From Halobacterium sp. KA-4 (GTDB taxonomy: Archaea > Halobacteriota > Halobacteria > Halobacteriales > Halobacteriaceae), in assembly GCF_021028995.1 (NCBI RefSeq), contig NZ_JAJJZG010000001.1:1-64000 (forward strand): a DNA stretch of 64,000 nt, given 5' to 3'. This document shows, in pieces, positions 27,765-35,513 of this stretch. The notes beneath the pieces are model-generated. The model was not told the origin of the DNA, did no database searches, and saw nothing but the letters and a program-made list of their open reading frames with translations. The position numbers and the translations under genes were made by a program. Every line of letters starts with the position of its first letter. The stretch's first letter is position 1.

Positions 27765-29843
27765 ATGGTAGGTGCATTCGACTTCACTCCGGCCATTCCG
27801 CTACTACCGTTCGCCGCGTTCCTCGTGGCGATGCTCGTCGGCCACTTCGCGCCGCGGCTGCTGCCGAAAGGCGGCGCGATTCCCGGCATCCTCGCGACCG
27901 CCGGGTCGCTGCTGTTGTCCATCTGGACGTTCCTGACGGTGAGTGGCGGCAGCTACCACGCACAGGATATCTACACGTGGGTCGTCGGCCAGAACACGTT
28001 CAGTCTCCACTTCGGCATCCTCGTCGACCCGCTGTCGGCGATGATGCTGGTCATCGTGTCGCTGGTCGCGGTCCTCGTGCACGTGTTCAGCCTCGGCTAC
28101 ATGAACGACGAGGGCGAGACCGGCCTCCCGCGGTACTACGCCGGCCTCGGCCTGTTCACGTTCTCGATGCTGGCGTTCGTCGTCGCGGACAACCTCCTGA
28201 TGGCGTTCATGTTCTTCGAGCTGGTCGGGCTCTGCTCGTACCTGCTCATCGGGTTCCACTTCCGGGAGCCCGGCCCGCCGAGCGCCGCGAAGAAGGCGTT
28301 CCTCGTCACGCGCTTCGGGGACTACTTCTTCCTCATCGGCGTCGTCGGCATCCTCGCGACGTTCGGCACCGCGCGGTTCGTCGCCGTCGGTGACGGCGTC
28401 CACAGCTTCCCGCACCTCGCCGAGCAAGCGCTCGCGGCTGCGGGCGGCGAGGGAACGATGCCCGAACACGTCGCGCACTTCCTCGACGTCATCGGCATGA
28501 ACGCCGAGACGTGGTTCGCGATTCTCGGCCTACTCGTGCTCGGCGGCGTCGTCGGCAAGTCCGCGCAGTTCCCGCTGCACACGTGGCTGCCGGACGCGAT
28601 GGAGGGCCCGACGCCCGTCTCCGCGCTCATCCACGCCGCGACGATGGTGGCGGCCGGCGTCTACCTCGTCGCGCGCATGTACGGCTTCTACGCGCTGCTC
28701 CCGACCGTCCTCGCGATTATCGCGCTGGTCGGCGGGTTCACCGCGCTGTTCGCCGCGTCGATGGGTGTCGTCAAGGACGAGCTCAAGCAGGTGCTGGCGT
28801 ACTCGACCATCAGCCAGTACGGCTACATGATGCTCGGCCTCGGCACCGGCGGCTACATCGCTGCGACCTTCCACCTGATGACCCACGCGTTCTTCAAGGC
28901 GCTGCTGTTCTTGGGCGCCGGGTCGGTCATCATCGCGATGCACCACAACGAGGACATGTGGGACATGGGCGGCCTCCGCGAGAAGATGCCCGTGACCTAC
29001 TACACGTTCCTCTCCGGCAGCCTCGCGCTCGCCGGCATCGTGCCGTTCTCGGGCTTCTGGTCGAAGGACGAAATCCTCTACGAGGCGCTCATCTACGGCG
29101 CCGGCGACAGCCCGATTCTGCTCGCCGCGTACGCGATGGGGCTGCTCGCGGTGTTCTTCACGGGCTTCTACACGTTCCGGATGGTGTTCCTCACCTTCCA
29201 CGGCGAACCCCGTAGCGACACCGCCCGCGACCCCCACGGCGTCCGCTGGAACGTCAAGCTCCCGCTGGTCGTCCTCGGGATTCTCGCGGCCACCGTCGGC
29301 CTCGTGAACATGACGCCCGTCGCGGAGCTCACGGGCCTCCACATCGAGTATCTCCACCAGTGGCTGGTGATTCCGGAGGCCAGCGACTTCGCCGCGCTCG
29401 GCTACGACAACTACCACCACCTGCTCGAACAGTTCGCCGGCTACCACGCCGCGGACATCGGCCCGCTTGCGCCGGGCGCCGTCTCGCTGGCGCTCGCGCT
29501 CGGCGGCGCCGGCCTCGCGTGGGTGCTGTACAACGTCGACTCGCCGACCGAGCACACCGAGAAGCTCGGCGGCGTCAAGACCGTACTGTACAACAACTAC
29601 TACCAGGACGAGTACCAGGTGTGGCTCGCGCAAGGCGTCACGCTCCCGCTCGCCCGCGCCGCCGACACGTTCGACCAGGGCATCGTCGACGGCGTCGTCA
29701 ACGGCGTCAGCAGCGTGAGTCTGTTCGCCGGCAGCCGCGTCAAGCGGATTCAGGACGGCCTCGTGACGCACTACGCCGCCCTGTTGACGCTGGGTCTGGT
29801 CGTCCTCCTGGTGGCCTTCGGCCTCCTCGAGGGGTGGTTCTGA
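27765..29843 (+). CDS. nuoL: Complex I antiporter-like subunit L
   Basis: A 692-residue subunit with 14-16 membrane helices, homologous to MrpA. Signatures: SLVAVLVHVFSLGYMNDE (about 90-107), FFELVGLCSYLLIGFHFREP (about 149-168) with the membrane Glu, GVVGKSAQFPLHTWLPDAMEGPTPVSALIHAATMVAAGVYLVARM (about 263-307) with the conserved Lys and His, and KDELKQVLAYSTISQYGYMMLGLG (about 337-360). A long C-terminal amphipathic segment and last helix follow, as expected for the lateral helix of NuoL. The ATG comes one base after the nuoK stop. Confidence 0.95.
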   Translation: MVGAFDFTPAIPLLPFAAFLVAMLVGHFAPRLLPKGGAIPGILATAGSLLLSIWTFLTVSGGSYHAQDIYTWVVGQNTFSLHFGILVDPLSAMMLVIVSLVAVLVHVFSLGYMNDEGETGLPRYYAGLGLFTFSMLAFVVADNLLMAFMFFELVGLCSYLLIGFHFREPGPPSAAKKAFLVTRFGDYFFLIGVVGILATFGTARFVAVGDGVHSFPHLAEQALAAAGGEGTMPEHVAHFLDVIGMNAETWFAILGLLVLGGVVGKSAQFPLHTWLPDAMEGPTPVSALIHAATMVAAGVYLVARMYGFYALLPTVLAIIALVGGFTALFAASMGVVKDELKQVLAYSTISQYGYMMLGLGTGGYIAATFHLMTHAFFKALLFLGAGSVIIAMHHNEDMWDMGGLREKMPVTYYTFLSGSLALAGIVPFSGFWSKDEILYEALIYGAGDSPILLAAYAMGLLAVFFTGFYTFRMVFLTFHGEPRSDTARDPHGVRWNVKLPLVVLGILAATVGLVNMTPVAELTGLHIEYLHQWLVIPEASDFAALGYDNYHHLLEQFAGYHAADIGPLAPGAVSLALALGGAGLAWVLYNVDSPTEHTEKLGGVKTVLYNNYYQDEYQVWLAQGVTLPLARAADTFDQGIVDGVVNGVSSVSLFAGSRVKRIQDGLVTHYAALLTLGLVVLLVAFGLLEGWF

Positions 29844-31394
29844 ATGTTGATTGAAGCACTCATCGCCGTCACGTTGGTTTCGGCGTTCGTCGTCATGCTC
29901 GCACCCGACGAGGTCGCGGGCAAACTGGCGTTCGCCCTGAGTCTGCTCCCCGTCGCGGGGAGCCTCTGGATGTTCGGACAGTTCGACGCGAGCGGTAACG
30001 CGCTCTTCGAGAGCGGGAACCTCGCGTTCGAGACGACTGCACGCTGGATTAGCGTCGGCCCGTACGCGCTCAACTGGCACGTCGGCCTCGACGGCATCAG
30101 CATGCCGCTGGTCGTCCTGTCGACGCTGCTGACGTCGCTCGCCATCGTGAGCGCGTGGACGCCGATTCAGGAGCGCCAAAGCCAGTTCTACTCGCTGATG
30201 CTGTTCATGCTGGCGAGCCTCCTGGGCGTGTTCACGGCACTGGACTTCTTCGTCTGGTTCGTCTTCTGGGAGTTCGTGCTCGTGCCGATGTACTTCCTCA
30301 TCGGCATCTGGGGCGGCCCCCGGCGGAAGTACGCGGCAATCAAGTTCTTCGTCTACACGAACGTCGCCAGCCTGGTGATGTTCATCGGATTCGTGGCGCT
30401 CGTGTTCGCGCTCCCGGTGCAGACGATGGACCTGCCGGCCATCGCGGCCGCGCTCGACGCCGGCAACTTCCAGACGACGTACGGCCTCGGCGCCGAGACC
30501 CTGAAGGTCGTCGCGTTCTTCGCGATGTTCCTCGGGTTCGCGGTGAAGGTGCCGCTGGTCCCGATGCACACGTGGCTGCCGGACGCCCACGTGCAGGCCC
30601 CCACGCCGGCCTCGGTGATGCTGGCTGGGGTGCTCCTGAAGATGGGGACGTACGCACTGCTCCGGTTCAACTTCACGATGCTGCCGGGCGTCGCGCGCGA
30701 CTACGCGGTGCTCATCGCTATCTTCGCCGTCGTCTCCGTGATTTACGGCGCGATGCTCGCACTCGCCCAGCAGGACCTCAAGCGCATCGTCGCGTACTCC
30801 TCGGTATCGTCGATGGGGTACGTGATTCTCGGGCTCGTGGCGTACAACGTCTACGGGCTCGGCGGCGCGACCTTCCAGATGGTCGCCCACGGCCTCATCT
30901 CGGGGCTGATGTTCATGTGCGTCGGCGTCATCTACAACGTTGCCCACACGCGCATGGTCGGTGACCTCTCCGGCATCGCCGACAAGATGCCGGTGACCGC
31001 CGCGGTGTTCGTCGCCGCGGCGTTCGGCTACATGGGCCTGCCGCTGATGGCGGGCTTCGCTGGCGAGCTGTTCATCTTCCTCGGCGGCTTCAGCGCCACC
31101 TTCCCGTACGCGCAGCTGTTCACGGCGCTGGCGATGTTCGGCATCGTCGTCGTCGCGGGCTACCTGCTGTTCGCGATGCAGCGCGTCCTCTTCGGGCCGT
31201 TCAGCGCGGACACGGACTACGACATCGTGCCCGCAGCGCCCCACGACGCGGCAGCCATCGTCGTGCTGGTGTTGCTGGTCGTCGTGCTCGGGACGGTCCC
31301 CGAGGTGTTCTATGGCATGATTCAGGACGCGGTCAACCCGATGGTGGACTCGCTGCCGGAGGCAACTGCCTTCCTCACCGGGGGTGAGCTCTGA
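29844..31394 (+). CDS. nuoM: Complex I antiporter-like subunit M
   Basis: A 516-residue proton-pumping membrane subunit with about 14 helices. WHVGLDGISMPLVVLSTLLTSLAIVSAW (about 76-103), FWEFVLVPMYFLIGIWGGPRRKYAAIKFFVYT (about 141-172) with the conserved Glu, GFAVKVPLVPMHTWLPDAHVQAPTPASVMLAGVLLKMGTYALLRF (about 232-276) with the channel Lys, and QDLKRIVAYSSVSSMGYVILGL (about 310-331). Abuts nuoL and overlaps nuoN by TGATG. Confidence 0.95.
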   Translation: MLIEALIAVTLVSAFVVMLAPDEVAGKLAFALSLLPVAGSLWMFGQFDASGNALFESGNLAFETTARWISVGPYALNWHVGLDGISMPLVVLSTLLTSLAIVSAWTPIQERQSQFYSLMLFMLASLLGVFTALDFFVWFVFWEFVLVPMYFLIGIWGGPRRKYAAIKFFVYTNVASLVMFIGFVALVFALPVQTMDLPAIAAALDAGNFQTTYGLGAETLKVVAFFAMFLGFAVKVPLVPMHTWLPDAHVQAPTPASVMLAGVLLKMGTYALLRFNFTMLPGVARDYAVLIAIFAVVSVIYGAMLALAQQDLKRIVAYSSVSSMGYVILGLVAYNVYGLGGATFQMVAHGLISGLMFMCVGVIYNVAHTRMVGDLSGIADKMPVTAAVFVAAAFGYMGLPLMAGFAGELFIFLGGFSATFPYAQLFTALAMFGIVVVAGYLLFAMQRVLFGPFSADTDYDIVPAAPHDAAAIVVLVLLVVVLGTVPEVFYGMIQDAVNPMVDSLPEATAFLTGGEL

Positions 31395-32878
31395 TGGTGG
31401 AACTGCCACCGCTGACGCCCCAGATTCTGCTCGGGCTGACGGCCATCGTGCTGTTCGGCATCGACATTATCGCGCCCGACACCCGGAAGAACGGGCTGCT
31501 GGCGTCGGTGAGCGCCATTGGCACCGTCGCCGCCGCCGCGACTGCGGTGTGGTTCCTCGCGGCCGGCTCGGGCGATTACCGGTTCGTGCAGTTCGACGGC
31601 GCGCTCGTCGTGGACGCGTTGAGCCTGTTCTTCGCGTTCGTCGTCGCAAGCGTCGCCACGCTCGTCGTGATCGGGAGTTACGACTACATCGAGGGCGAGG
31701 AGCACGTCTCCGAGTACTACTCGCTGGTGCTGCTGGCGGCGACCGGCATGTCGCTGATGGCGGCCGCCAACAGCCTCGTGACCGTGTTCGTCGCGCTGGA
31801 ACTGGCGAGCCTCCCGTCGTACGCGCTCGTCTCGTTCCTGAAGACCGACCGTGGCAGCGTCGAAGCCGGCCTGAAGTACTTCCTCATCGGTGCGCTGTCC
31901 TCCGCCGTGATGGTGTACGGCATCAGTCTGGTGTACGCCACCACGGGGACGCTCCTGCTGGACGACATCGCGGCCGAAGTCGCCGGCAACCAGTTCGGCG
32001 GCGTGCTTGGCCTCGGCATCCTGATGCTCGCCGGTGGGTTCGCGTTCAAGACGGCCTCGGTGCCGTTCCACTTCTGGGCGCCGGAGGCCTACGAGGGCGC
32101 GCCCGCGCCGATTAGCGCGTTCCTCTCGTCGGCATCGAAGGCAGCCGGCTTCGCGGTCGCGTTCCGCGTGTTCACGACCGCGTTCCCGCTCGACGCGGTG
32201 GCCGCCGTGGCCATCGACTGGTCACTGCTGTTCGCCGTGCTCGCGGTGGTCACGATGACCCTCGGGAACTTCGCGGCGGCCACGCAGAACGAGGTCAAGC
32301 GGATGCTCGCGTACTCCTCCATCGGGCACGCCGGCTACGTGCTGATGGGGCTGGCCGCGCTCCAGAGCGGCGCCGCGGAGGCGAACGCCTTCGTGCTCGG
32401 CGCGTCGATGACCCACCTGCTCGTCTACGGCTTCATGAACACGGGTGCGTTCCTGTTCGTCGCGCTCGTCGAGTACTGGGACGTGGGCCGCACGTTCGAG
32501 GACTACAACGGCCTCGCGACCCGCGCCCCCGTGGCGTGTGTCGCGATGACCGTGTTCATGTTCAGCCTCGCCGGCCTCCCGGTCGGCGGCGGCTTCCTCT
32601 CGAAGTACCTGCTGTTCGCGGGGACCGTCCAGGCTGGCTTCGCGTGGCTCGCGGCCATCGCGGCTATCAACAGCGCACTATCGCTGTACTACTACTCGCG
32701 AGTCGTCAAGGCAATCTGGATCGAGGACCCCAGCGACGACCTCTCGCTGGCCGGGACGCCGACCGGCCTCTACACCGCCGTCGTCGCGGCGGCGGTGGCG
32801 ACGGTCGTCCTGCTGGTGGCGTTCGACCCGGTCGCGCAGACCGCCGTCCACGCTGCCGACGTCCTGTTCGCGCTGTAA
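31394..32878 (+). CDS. nuoN: Complex I antiporter-like subunit N
   Basis: A 494-residue proton-pumping subunit with about 14 helices, last gene of the operon. ELASLPSYALVSFLKTDRGSVEAGLKYFLIGALSSAVMVYGISLVYATTG (about 136-185), GFAFKTASVPFHFWAPEAYEGAPAPISAFLSSASKAAGFAV (about 216-256) with the channel Lys and His, and NEVKRMLAYSSIGHAGYVLMGLAAL (about 299-323). The next gene starts 57 bp later with its own likely promoter (CCTTTTAG near 32900). Confidence 0.95.
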   Translation: MVELPPLTPQILLGLTAIVLFGIDIIAPDTRKNGLLASVSAIGTVAAAATAVWFLAAGSGDYRFVQFDGALVVDALSLFFAFVVASVATLVVIGSYDYIEGEEHVSEYYSLVLLAATGMSLMAAANSLVTVFVALELASLPSYALVSFLKTDRGSVEAGLKYFLIGALSSAVMVYGISLVYATTGTLLLDDIAAEVAGNQFGGVLGLGILMLAGGFAFKTASVPFHFWAPEAYEGAPAPISAFLSSASKAAGFAVAFRVFTTAFPLDAVAAVAIDWSLLFAVLAVVTMTLGNFAAATQNEVKRMLAYSSIGHAGYVLMGLAALQSGAAEANAFVLGASMTHLLVYGFMNTGAFLFVALVEYWDVGRTFEDYNGLATRAPVACVAMTVFMFSLAGLPVGGGFLSKYLLFAGTVQAGFAWLAAIAAINSALSLYYYSRVVKAIWIEDPSDDLSLAGTPTGLYTAVVAAAVATVVLLVAFDPVAQTAVHAADVLFAL

Positions 32879-32935
32879 GCGAACGGGGCACAACGGTACC
32901 TTTTAGCGGATTCGGGAGCTATCACGGGTCAACGA

Positions 32936-34345
32936 ATGGTTTCTCGGCTCGTGCTCGGCTGCGGCACGACCGGCCACGCCCTCGTCGAACACCTCTCACA
33001 GCGCCGCGGCGAGCTGTTCGTGCTCGACAGCGACGCGAGCCGCGTGGAGTCGCTACGCAACGAGAAGGTCGCCGCCGAGGTCCGGGACGTCACCGACCCC
33101 GACGAGATTAGCGGGCTGGAGCGCGACGTCGACGTGGTCCTGGTGGCGACCGACGGGGCCGCCGCCAACCGGCTGGCCGCGGAGGCCGCCCGCGAGGTCT
33201 ACCCGGACGCCGAACTCGTGGCGTACCTCGGATTCGAGGCGACCAGCGACGACCGCGAGGCGCTAGGCGCGGTTGCCGACCGCGTTATCGACCCCGGGGC
33301 GGCGATACTCGACCACATCGAGGAGGTCGCGACCGCCGAGGGCTCCGAGAGACTGCAGGCACTACGCACGACGCTCGAAGCCATCGACGGGACGATAGGC
33401 GTGTTCATGCACGACAACCCCGACCCTGACGCCATCGCGACGGCAGTCGGACTGTCGCGCATCGCCGCGGAGTTCGGCGTCGAGACGGAGGCGTGCTACT
33501 TCGGGGAGATCTCCCACCAAGAGAACCGCGCGTTCGTCAACCTCCTCGAACTCGAGGTCCGGAACGTGGAAGTTGGCGAGGAACTGGACTTCGACGCCAT
33601 CGCGCTCGTTGACCACTCCGCACCCGGCGTCAACGACCAACTCGACCCCGAGACGAAGGTCGACATCGTCGTCGACCACCACCCGCCGAACGACGACGTG
33701 GAGGCCGACTTCGTAGACATCCGCCCCGGGCTGGGCGCGGCAAGCACTATTCTCGTCGAGTACATTCGCGGGTTCGGTCTCGACGTCGAGACTGAGGTCG
33801 CGACGGCGCTGTTATACGGTATCCGCGTGGACACCGACGACTTCGCCCGCGAGATTACGACCGACGACTTCGAGGCGGGCGCGTGGCTGCTGGACCGCGC
33901 GGACACGGACGTCTTGGAGCGCATCGAGAGCCCGTCTGTGAGCGCGGACACCCTCGACACCATCGCGCGGGCCATCCGCAACCGCGAACTCGACGGGTCC
34001 GTGCTGGCATCCTGCGTCGGTGCCATCTCCGACCGCGACACGCTCGCACAGGCCGCCGACCGCTTGCTCGCGATGCGGGGCGTGACGGTAACGTTTGTCT
34101 ACGGCTATAGCGAGGGTACCATCTACGTCTCCGCGCGGTCGCGGGGCAGCGACGAGGACCTCGGCGCGGTACTGCGGTCGGCGTTCGACGAGATGGGGAG
34201 CGCGGGCGGCCACGCGGACATGGCGGGCGCACAACTCCCACTGGGGCTGTTCGACGATGTCGGCGAGGAAGCCGAGCAGACGCTCACGGAGATGGTCGAG
34301 GACGTGGTAGCGACGCGGTTCTTCGAAGCGATTCGCGGGGGGTGA
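32936..34345 (+). CDS. RCK(TrkA-N)-DHH-DHHA1 fusion protein, putative cyclic dinucleotide or oligoribonucleotide phosphodiesterase
   Basis: A 469-residue three-domain protein. Residues 1-125 are a TrkA-N/RCK Rossmann domain (LVLGCGTTGHALVEHL, the GxGxxG box). The DHH phosphoesterase domain (about 145-320) shows MHDNPDPDAIATAVGL (motif I), LVDHSAPG (motif II) and VDIVVDHHPPND (the DHH motif). A DHHA1 domain (about 355-465) has FVYGYSEGTIYVSARSRG and GSAGGHADMAG. DHH-DHHA1 enzymes hydrolyse cyclic di-AMP, pApA or short RNAs using two metal ions; RCK domains bind NAD(H) or cyclic di-AMP and occur in potassium transport regulators. The combination suggests a nucleotide signal-degrading enzyme, but substrate is inference. 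The CBS-ParB gene follows in the same direction. Confidence 0.87.
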   Translation: MVSRLVLGCGTTGHALVEHLSQRRGELFVLDSDASRVESLRNEKVAAEVRDVTDPDEISGLERDVDVVLVATDGAAANRLAAEAAREVYPDAELVAYLGFEATSDDREALGAVADRVIDPGAAILDHIEEVATAEGSERLQALRTTLEAIDGTIGVFMHDNPDPDAIATAVGLSRIAAEFGVETEACYFGEISHQENRAFVNLLELEVRNVEVGEELDFDAIALVDHSAPGVNDQLDPETKVDIVVDHHPPNDDVEADFVDIRPGLGAASTILVEYIRGFGLDVETEVATALLYGIRVDTDDFAREITTDDFEAGAWLLDRADTDVLERIESPSVSADTLDTIARAIRNRELDGSVLASCVGAISDRDTLAQAADRLLAMRGVTVTFVYGYSEGTIYVSARSRGSDEDLGAVLRSAFDEMGSAGGHADMAGAQLPLGLFDDVGEEAEQTLTEMVEDVVATRFFEAIRGG

Positions 34346-34377
34346 GTTTTTCCCGGTCGACGCGTAACGGGCACGTG

Positions 34378-35181
34378 ATGGACTCGGCCCTCGACCACAA
34401 CGGCGCGAAACCCACGGTCGACGACTACATGACCCGTGACGTCGCGACCGTCTCCCCCGACGACACGGTACGCGACGTCGCGACCCGTATCTCCGAGAGC
34501 GAACACAACGGCTTCCCGGTGACCGAGGGGCGACGTGTCGAAGGGTTCGTCTCCGCGCGGGACCTCCTCCTCTCCGACCCCGACGAACTCGTGTTCAAGG
34601 TGATGAGCGACGAGCTCATCGTCGCCCATCCCGAGATGAAGGTGACCGACGCCGCCCGCGTCATCCTGCGATCGGGCATCCAGAAGCTCCCAGTCGTCGA
34701 CGACGCGGGCAACCTCGTCGGCATCATCTCGAACTCCGACGTCATCCGCTCGCAGATCGAGCGCGCCACCCCCGAGAAGGTCGGGAAGCTCAAGCGCACG
34801 CTAGAGACGATTCACGGCATCGAAGCCAGAGAGGAGCGACGCACTGTCCAGTTGGACGAGTTGGTGCCGACACAGGGGAAGGTGTACGCCGACGAATTAG
34901 AGGGGCGCCAGTATGAACTCGAACACGGCCTCGCGGAGCCGCTAGTCGTCATCGATAACGGCGGCGTCGAACTCCTGCTGGCGGATGGCCACCACCGCGT
35001 GATGGCCGCCGAACGCGCGGGCATCGATGAAATGGACGCCTACGTCATCGTCCTGGAGCGCCGCGTCGATCTAGGGATGGCCCGTACCGCGGACAAGGAG
35101 GGCCTGGAGTCGATTTCTGACATCCACGTCGTGGACTACGCCCACCACCCGCTCGTAGAGACAATCGAGCGCCTCCAGTAG
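34378..35181 (+). CDS. Two CBS domains fused to a ParB/Srx-like domain
   Basis: A 267-residue protein. Residues 13-65 and 75-130 are CBS domains (VDDYMTRDVATVSPDDTVRDVATRI, HNGFPVTEGRRVEGFVSARDLLLS; then VMSDELIVAHPEMKVTDAARVILRSGIQKLPVVDDAGNLVGIISNSDV). Residues 155-245 resemble a ParB/sulfiredoxin domain, with LDELVPTQGKVY, GLAEPLVVIDNGG and LLADGHHRVMAAERAGIDEMDAYVI. ParB/Srx domains bind nucleotides and some hydrolyse or use NTPs. The ATG at 34378 is preferred over a GTG at 34342 that overlaps the previous gene. Placed 32 bp after the RCK-DHH gene, it may sense a nucleotide related to that enzyme. Confidence 0.83.
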   Translation: MDSALDHNGAKPTVDDYMTRDVATVSPDDTVRDVATRISESEHNGFPVTEGRRVEGFVSARDLLLSDPDELVFKVMSDELIVAHPEMKVTDAARVILRSGIQKLPVVDDAGNLVGIISNSDVIRSQIERATPEKVGKLKRTLETIHGIEAREERRTVQLDELVPTQGKVYADELEGRQYELEHGLAEPLVVIDNGGVELLLADGHHRVMAAERAGIDEMDAYVIVLERRVDLGMARTADKEGLESISDIHVVDYAHHPLVETIERLQ

Positions 35182-35189
35182 CCGGACGC

Positions 35190-35513
35190 CTACACCTCGT
35201 TGACGGCCAGCGTGTCGTCAACCCGCAACGTCACGTCGTCGCCATCGACGGTGACTGTGACTTCAACAGCCGTCGCGTCGGCCGTGAGGTCGGCGCTGTC
35301 CGGATCCCACACGAACGACAGGCTTGCAGGGAGTTCACGCTGCACGTCAACGCCATGGTCGTAGTACAGCGGGACGACTGCCGGTGAACCCATGACCGCG
35401 GCCCGCGTCATCAGCGACAGCCAGCAGTTCTCGCAGGCAAACGTGGCGTTGACATGACCGTCCTCGATTTTCTCAAACCCTCGACGGCGACCGGCGCGGA
35501 GCAAACGAAGCAA
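35190..35513 (-). pseudogene. Remnant of a haloarchaeal winged-helix regulator (C-terminal ligand domain only)
   Basis: The 107-codon frame encodes FACENCWLSL, AVVPLYYDHGVDVQ, FVWDPDS and VTVTVDGDDVTLRVDDTLAV, a zinc-knuckle plus beta domain like the C-terminal half of haloarchaeal ArsR-like regulators (DUF7351 type). The winged helix that should come first is missing; upstream lies an unrelated frame on the other strand. Truncation is therefore likely. The family link is from memory of such proteins and moderate in certainty. It is convergent with the CBS-ParB gene (8 bp between the stops). Confidence 0.45.

Follow-up and report, generated by a model that had tools for sequence, protein, structure and literature searches.

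A candidate c-di-AMP/pApA phosphodiesterase in Halobacterium and its CBS-ParB neighbor, probably evolving separately

Introduction

Are two adjacent genes of a haloarchaeon, one for an RCK-DHH-DHHA1 protein (ORF1) and one for a CBS-CBS-ParB protein (ORF2), the two halves of a dedicated cyclic di-AMP (c-di-AMP) signaling unit, or are they neighbors that evolve separately? A first-pass annotation of this DNA from Halobacterium sp. KA-4 leaned to the former: a degrader with its own sensor would stand beside a CBS reader of the signal, perhaps in connection with potassium homeostasis.

The question matters because c-di-AMP is essential in Haloferax volcanii, where its level has to be kept within tight limits (PMC6741144, PMC8646023, PMC8305020), while as late as 2021 its degrading enzyme was described as not yet known (PMC8646023). 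Three proteins of H. volcanii, HVO_0990, HVO_0756, and HVO_1690, have been predicted to fill this role (PMC8305020), and HVO_0990 and HVO_1690 are among the proteins raised under hypochlorite stress (PMC10294847). The fusion of a Rossmann NAD-binding domain to DHH-DHHA1 was catalogued in 2012 as the uncharacterized arCOG01566 (PMC3307487); neither PMC3307487 nor PMC8305020 reports an experimental characterization of arCOG01566 or HVO_0990. From its gene number near nuo (nuoB is HVO_0979), and matched by number alone, HVO_0990 is probably the orthologue of ORF1.

The Locus

The window is the whole stretch analyzed, 64,000 nucleotides at the start of contig NZ_JAJJZG010000001.1. Its features of interest are as follows.

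27765..32878, + strand: nuoL, nuoM, and nuoN, conserved upstream context outside the unit (Pfam; synteny for nuoN)
32901..32906, + strand: TTTTAG, a TATA-like box that precedes the start of ORF1 by 30-35 bases (sequence and orthologous loci)
32936..34345, + strand: ORF1 (paralogue A), 469 aa, a phosphodiesterase of RCK_N-DHH-DHHA1 type (Pfam, alignment, fold match, tree)
32936..33289, + strand: RCK_N (TrkA_N) Rossmann domain of ORF1, residues 1-118 (Pfam, 47.9 bits)
33395..33823, + strand: DHH catalytic domain of ORF1, residues 154-296, with HDNPDPDA, VDHS, DHH, and RVDT (Pfam, motifs intact)
33995..34288, + strand: DHHA1 substrate-binding domain of ORF1, residues 354-451, with GGH (Pfam, motif intact)
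34347..34351, + strand: T-run TTTTT as TATA-like box, which precedes the likely start of ORF2 by 27-31 bases (sequence and orthologous loci)
34378..35181, + strand: ORF2, CBS-CBS-ParB-fold protein, likely 267 aa (Pfam, alignment, conserved start, fold)
34789..35178, + strand: ParB-CTPase-fold domain of ORF2, P motif GHHR of the form GxxR (profile, ParB-CDP fold match, invariant DGHHR)

By Pfam, the pair lies directly 3' of nuoL-nuoM-nuoN, a context absent from the first-pass annotation, and is followed by a DUF7351 match, a methylmalonyl-CoA mutase, a GNAT-DUF5816 protein, and a COX1-type oxidase subunit. The DUF7351 match is a 107-aa frame (35190-35513, - strand) covering only the second half of the profile (88-177 of 177), and it is possibly a truncated or frameshifted gene. 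No RNA family was found in the window.

ORF1: An Intact DHH-DHHA1 Enzyme

What kind of enzyme is ORF1? The proposed architecture holds: TrkA_N (that is, RCK_N; E=2e-12), DHH (E=1e-12), and DHHA1 (E=2e-15) all score above their Pfam cut-offs, and the four motifs singled out before, DNPDPDA, DHSAP, VDHH, and GGH, are all found. Across an alignment of 19 orthologues, DNPDPDA, DHS, DHH, and GGH are invariant. With both domains present and the DxD, DH, DHH, and GGH motifs intact, ORF1 has the makeup of a DHH-DHHA1 c-di-AMP/pApA phosphodiesterase.

The sensor is incomplete, and only the RCK_N half is there. In the potassium RCK regulators of KtrA/TrkA type, the c-di-AMP site is RCK_C, and Pfam gave no match to this domain (TrkA_C) in ORF1, which is thus set apart from the c-di-AMP-binding regulators of that type. 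Nor is ORF1 a GdpP proper, a protein in which a membrane segment, a PAS domain, and a GGDEF-like domain precede DHH-DHHA1: the only Pfam match at its N-terminus is TrkA_N. The suggested potassium link finds nothing to lean on elsewhere at the locus, as no trk or kdp gene occurs among the neighbors scanned (27.8-40.7 kb) and the sole diadenylate cyclase gene of the genome (dacZ) lies on a different contig.

By sequence and fold, the best solved relatives of ORF1 include the catalytic domains of c-di-AMP phosphodiesterases and GdpP, TM1595, and DhhP. In the fold search, nanoRNases match the same fold. Moreover, a DHH-DHHA1 enzyme from Pyrococcus acts strictly on pAp, as a phosphatase, and cleaves neither c-di-AMP nor pApA (PMC8268124), and this calls for caution in deducing a substrate from a fold. 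Taken together, these two facts mean that substrate specificity is unreadable from the motifs of ORF1.

Which other proteins could do the job? A DHH search of this genome returned four proteins: ORF1 (A), its paralogue B, and two RecJ-like proteins with DHH-CID or S1/OB domains. ORF1 is the only one found that is both intact in the motifs checked and not RecJ-like. PgpH-type phosphodiesterases were found in none of seven haloarchaea, this genome included. If a DHH-DHHA1 enzyme acts on c-di-AMP or pApA here, then, RecJ-like proteins aside, ORF1 would be the one candidate found with intact motifs. More divergent DHH-like matches also exist, among them L195 in a related genome.

Two Paralogues with Reciprocal Decay

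In the DHH-DHHA1 tree, group A (with the gene of the window) is accompanied by RCK-less haloarchaeal groups and other Halobacteriota proteins, and a separate haloarchaeal group forms paralogue B. The member of this genome is located as follows.

G000:C44:86802-88190 (L071:2758-4233): paralogue B, strong in its RCK domain, with DHH changed to DHY and GGH to AGH

Its neighbors (L071:12-2149, - strand) look, by eye, like a KaiC-like ATPase and like a response regulator.

The two paralogues have worn away at opposite ends. In B proteins from 12 sampled haloarchaea, GGH is changed in all 12 and DHH in 11, whereas the aligned A proteins keep both intact. For DHHA1, A proteins reach 44-61 bits and the proteins of other Halobacteriota 37-52, while B proteins stay at 31 bits or below where they match at all. 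For TrkA_N the order is reversed: nine proteins of group A reach 31-54 bits, as against 72-85 for seven of group B and 62-102 for eight from other Halobacteriota. The RCK_N of ORF1, at 47.9 bits, is accordingly weaker than that of its non-haloarchaeal relatives; some A proteins (L025, L029) have lost the GxGxxG signature, and in three family f5 genomes no RCK match was detected. Decay is therefore reciprocal: A keeps the catalytic motifs with a weakened sensor, B keeps the sensor with degraded motifs. As some metal ligands of B may be kept, its inactivity is a prediction.

This is the most interesting lead of the analysis. One speculative and rather doubtful extension is that haloarchaea split an ancestral sensor-plus-enzyme RCK-DHH phosphodiesterase between A and B, and that B might now be a pseudoenzyme, either a sensor subunit or an antagonist, controlling c-di-AMP breakdown by A.

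Losses Shared with the Cyclase

Does the enzyme follow the signal? Profile searches covered 295 Halobacteriota genomes, with the diadenylate cyclase sought as PF02457 and absences taken as the complements of complete positive lists. RCK-DHH was found in 267 genomes and CBS-ParB in 183. RCK-DHH and the cyclase occur together in 256 of the 295 genomes and are both missing from 20; the 19 discordant genomes comprise 11 with RCK-DHH only and 8 with the cyclase only (Fisher p ~4e-17, a statistic that ignores relatedness).

Two cases are informative. One is family f33, whose eight listed genomes (99% complete) all lack both genes. The other is genus g59, in which two genomes (G071 and G172) have RCK-DHH and the cyclase and eight have neither. 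A second search at E 0.001 over ten of the lacking genomes (six of f33, four of g59) together with G071 and G172 gave, in the lacking ones, remote DHH matches at most. There are thus two clear joint losses, in f33 and in part of g59, plus scattered genomes. Most discordant genomes are incomplete assemblies; the exceptions among good genomes, G080 (RCK-DHH without cyclase) and G064 (cyclase without RCK-DHH), speak against a strict rule of co-occurrence. Because the cyclase is near-universal within haloarchaea, this evidence concerns the RCK-DHH family as a whole and not paralogue A alone.

This joint presence and absence strengthens the case for ORF1 as a candidate c-di-AMP/pApA phosphodiesterase.

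CBS-ParB does not behave in this way. It is retained in g59 genomes that lack both cyclase and RCK-DHH. Families f19, f22, and f24, in which most genomes carry the two, yielded no CBS-ParB. Its presence and absence do not track those of cyclase and enzyme, as would be expected of a dedicated partner, and CBS-ParB is hence separable from c-di-AMP.

ORF2: A ParB Fold behind Two CBS Domains

The identity of ORF2 as a CBS-CBS-ParB protein is confirmed, with a start that is probably different. Its open frame runs from a GTG at 34342 to 35181 (+ strand), but the first 12 residues are unconserved and are followed by a conserved start, MD-x-A-x-D, so that translation probably begins at the ATG at 34378. 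Translational coupling of ORF1 and ORF2 through a GTGA overlap was considered and dropped, as the conserved start lies 12 codons downstream.

The two CBS domains are unmistakable in Pfam (E=6e-27), and the only other match is a weak ParB-like one (ParBc_2, below cut-off). The ParB part emerges from more sensitive comparisons: a profile of 18 orthologues against solved structures found ParB (4umk, E=0.0013) and Spo0J (6sdk, E=0.037). In the fold model, the CBS half is poor (mean pLDDT 67) and the C-terminal half well predicted; fold matching was for this reason confined to the ParB half, which fits the ParB-CDP structure 6sdk (E=3.5e-4). DGHHR is invariant among the orthologues and is consistent with GxxR, the P motif of ParB folds that bind NTPs (motif from PMC12704722). 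Fold and P motif together place this half in the ParB-CTPase fold. DGHHR had also raised the suspicion of a SerK, for which no support emerged: SerK appeared neither in the profile hits nor among the 50 fold matches listed. CBS is reported to be the most frequent fusion partner of the ParB fold in archaea, mainly in Methanobacteriota and Haloarchaea (PMC12704722, PNAS 2025). Those close relatives of ORF2 that carry a name belong to Halobacterium species.

Outside haloarchaea, CBS-ParB keeps other company. At 19 such loci, no RCK-DHH gene was seen within the roughly 10 kb read, so that none of the other lineages in the sample showed the haloarchaeal pairing. In 8 of the 19, hisE (phosphoribosyl-ATP pyrophosphohydrolase) stands directly behind CBS-ParB, often overlapping it; the family was confirmed for three.

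L161, L163, L169, L171, L173, L174, L175, L176 (outside haloarchaea): CBS-ParB directly before hisE

A second CBS protein lies close to CBS-ParB in seven non-haloarchaeal loci (L158, L161, L163, L169, L172, L173, and L174); that of L161, the one scanned, has an HrcA-type winged helix.

A Real Adjacency with Probably Separate Promoters

Is the pairing then an accident of position? The coordinates of nuoN, RCK-DHH, and CBS-ParB were combined in 59 relatives. The two genes lie on the same strand less than 1 kb apart in 43 of them, a conserved adjacency in haloarchaea, and the full nuoN-ORF1-ORF2 order is kept in 35. Six genomes (G027, G028, G030, G044, G050, and G057) hold the pair intact away from nuoN, which favors some link between ORF1 and ORF2: the adjacency is real and goes beyond what the nuo block alone explains. 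CBS-ParB also occurs behind nuoN with no RCK-DHH between them, in four genomes that belong to families f2 and f10; in the two from f10, the gap is taken up by other reading frames. The fillers behind nuoN in L065 and L066 (G034 and G049) were judged by eye as metallo-beta-lactamase-fold-like and small DUF123-like frames.

A T-rich TATA-like box precedes the RCK-DHH start by 28-35 bases at 23 of 29 orthologous loci and the conserved CBS-ParB start by 28-34 bases at 23 of 26, counts that are non-independent, as many of the loci come from close relatives; the background is 1.5% of random 27-base windows from the same loci. In the window, each gene has its box about 31 bases before the start. A spacing of about 28-35 bases is what near-leaderless transcripts, a common type in haloarchaea, would call for. 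The two genes are probably transcribed separately, each from a promoter of its own.

Which Reading Fits Best?

The explanation to which we incline, on balance and by a modest degree, is that ORF1 is a c-di-AMP/pApA phosphodiesterase, while ORF2 is a separately evolving neighbor and no dedicated c-di-AMP unit exists. Its most substantial rival, tentative and rather unlikely in our view, makes ORF1 mainly a nanoRNase or pAp phosphatase of NrnA type, engaged in the turnover of RNA or sulfur nucleotides and tied only indirectly to the cyclase. NrnA and related enzymes do have the fold and motifs of ORF1, and the archaeal precedent from Pyrococcus is strictly a pAp phosphatase (PMC8268124), but the disappearance of the family together with the cyclase in f33 and in part of g59 is then left unexplained.

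The dedicated unit, in which ORF1 degrades the signal and CBS-ParB reads it, draws on the close adjacency in most relatives and on its persistence away from nuoN, and these leave some room for a two-gene signaling unit. We nevertheless judge it improbable. CBS-ParB persists where cyclase and enzyme are gone and is absent from families having both, it adjoins hisE outside haloarchaea, it stands behind nuoN without RCK-DHH in four genomes, and the separate TATA-like boxes predict separate promoters. An operon or two-gene module was for these reasons abandoned as the leading view; of the unit first proposed, the part that stands is ORF1 as a candidate degrader, backed by a published prediction (PMC8305020) and by co-occurrence with the cyclase, and the part that lacks support is CBS-ParB as its reader. 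Still more improbable, by a shade, is an energy-state control of respiration, in which ORF1, responding to NAD(H) or a nucleotide by way of RCK_N, and ORF2, responding to AMP/ATP by way of CBS, would both serve the Nuo complex. The conserved gene order behind nuoN, and the fact that CBS-ParB stays there in f2 and f10 without ORF1, speak for it; against it are a haloarchaeal Nuo without the NADH module (PMC8305020), the separation of the pair from nuo in several families, the predicted promoters of the two genes, and again the hisE neighborhood elsewhere.

Under the preferred reading, with ORF1 as the phosphodiesterase and ORF2 as a neighbor, ORF1 would be a soluble, metal-dependent enzyme, most likely taking c-di-AMP and/or pApA to AMP. 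Its RCK_N may be a weakened regulatory or oligomerization domain for a nucleotide or NAD(H), and the better preserved sensor would reside in paralogue B, whose catalytic motifs decayed. ORF2 could be an NTP-binding module of ParB fold under the control of an adenine-nucleotide-sensing CBS pair. Both genes would be conserved chromosomal neighbors behind the nuo genes, probably under separate promoters.

What is gained is a shorter list of candidates for c-di-AMP degradation: this genome offers one intact non-RecJ DHH protein among those found, its family tends to vanish with the cyclase, and paralogue B, which represents another type of candidate, appears degraded in its catalytic part. There is also a warning, namely that the CBS neighbor should not be read as a c-di-AMP receptor.

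Comparison with Known Systems

Among bacterial enzymes for c-di-AMP or pApA, GdpP, Pde2, TM1595, and DhhP have the DHH-DHHA1 fold and catalytic motifs in common with ORF1, at about 20% identity; where GdpP carries its membrane, PAS, and GGDEF-like part, ORF1 carries RCK_N. The pAp phosphatase of Pyrococcus yayanosii is, like ORF1, an archaeal DHH-DHHA1 enzyme, but no RCK domain is described for it, and it is pAp-specific and inactive on c-di-AMP and pApA (PMC8268124). The same architecture as in ORF1 is found in arCOG01566 (PMC3307487) and HVO_0990 (PMC8305020); descriptions of the losses shared with the cyclase and of the split into A and B were found in neither paper.

As for ORF2, the ADP-dependent serine kinase SerK is likewise an archaeal ParB-fold protein annotated as ParB (PMC5120207), but ORF2 has CBS domains in addition, and SerK is absent from the sequence and fold matches listed. 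Its architecture is that of the CBS fusions of the ParB-CTPase fold (PMC12704722), for which the present work describes the surroundings: in haloarchaea these are nuo and RCK-DHH, and in other lineages hisE.
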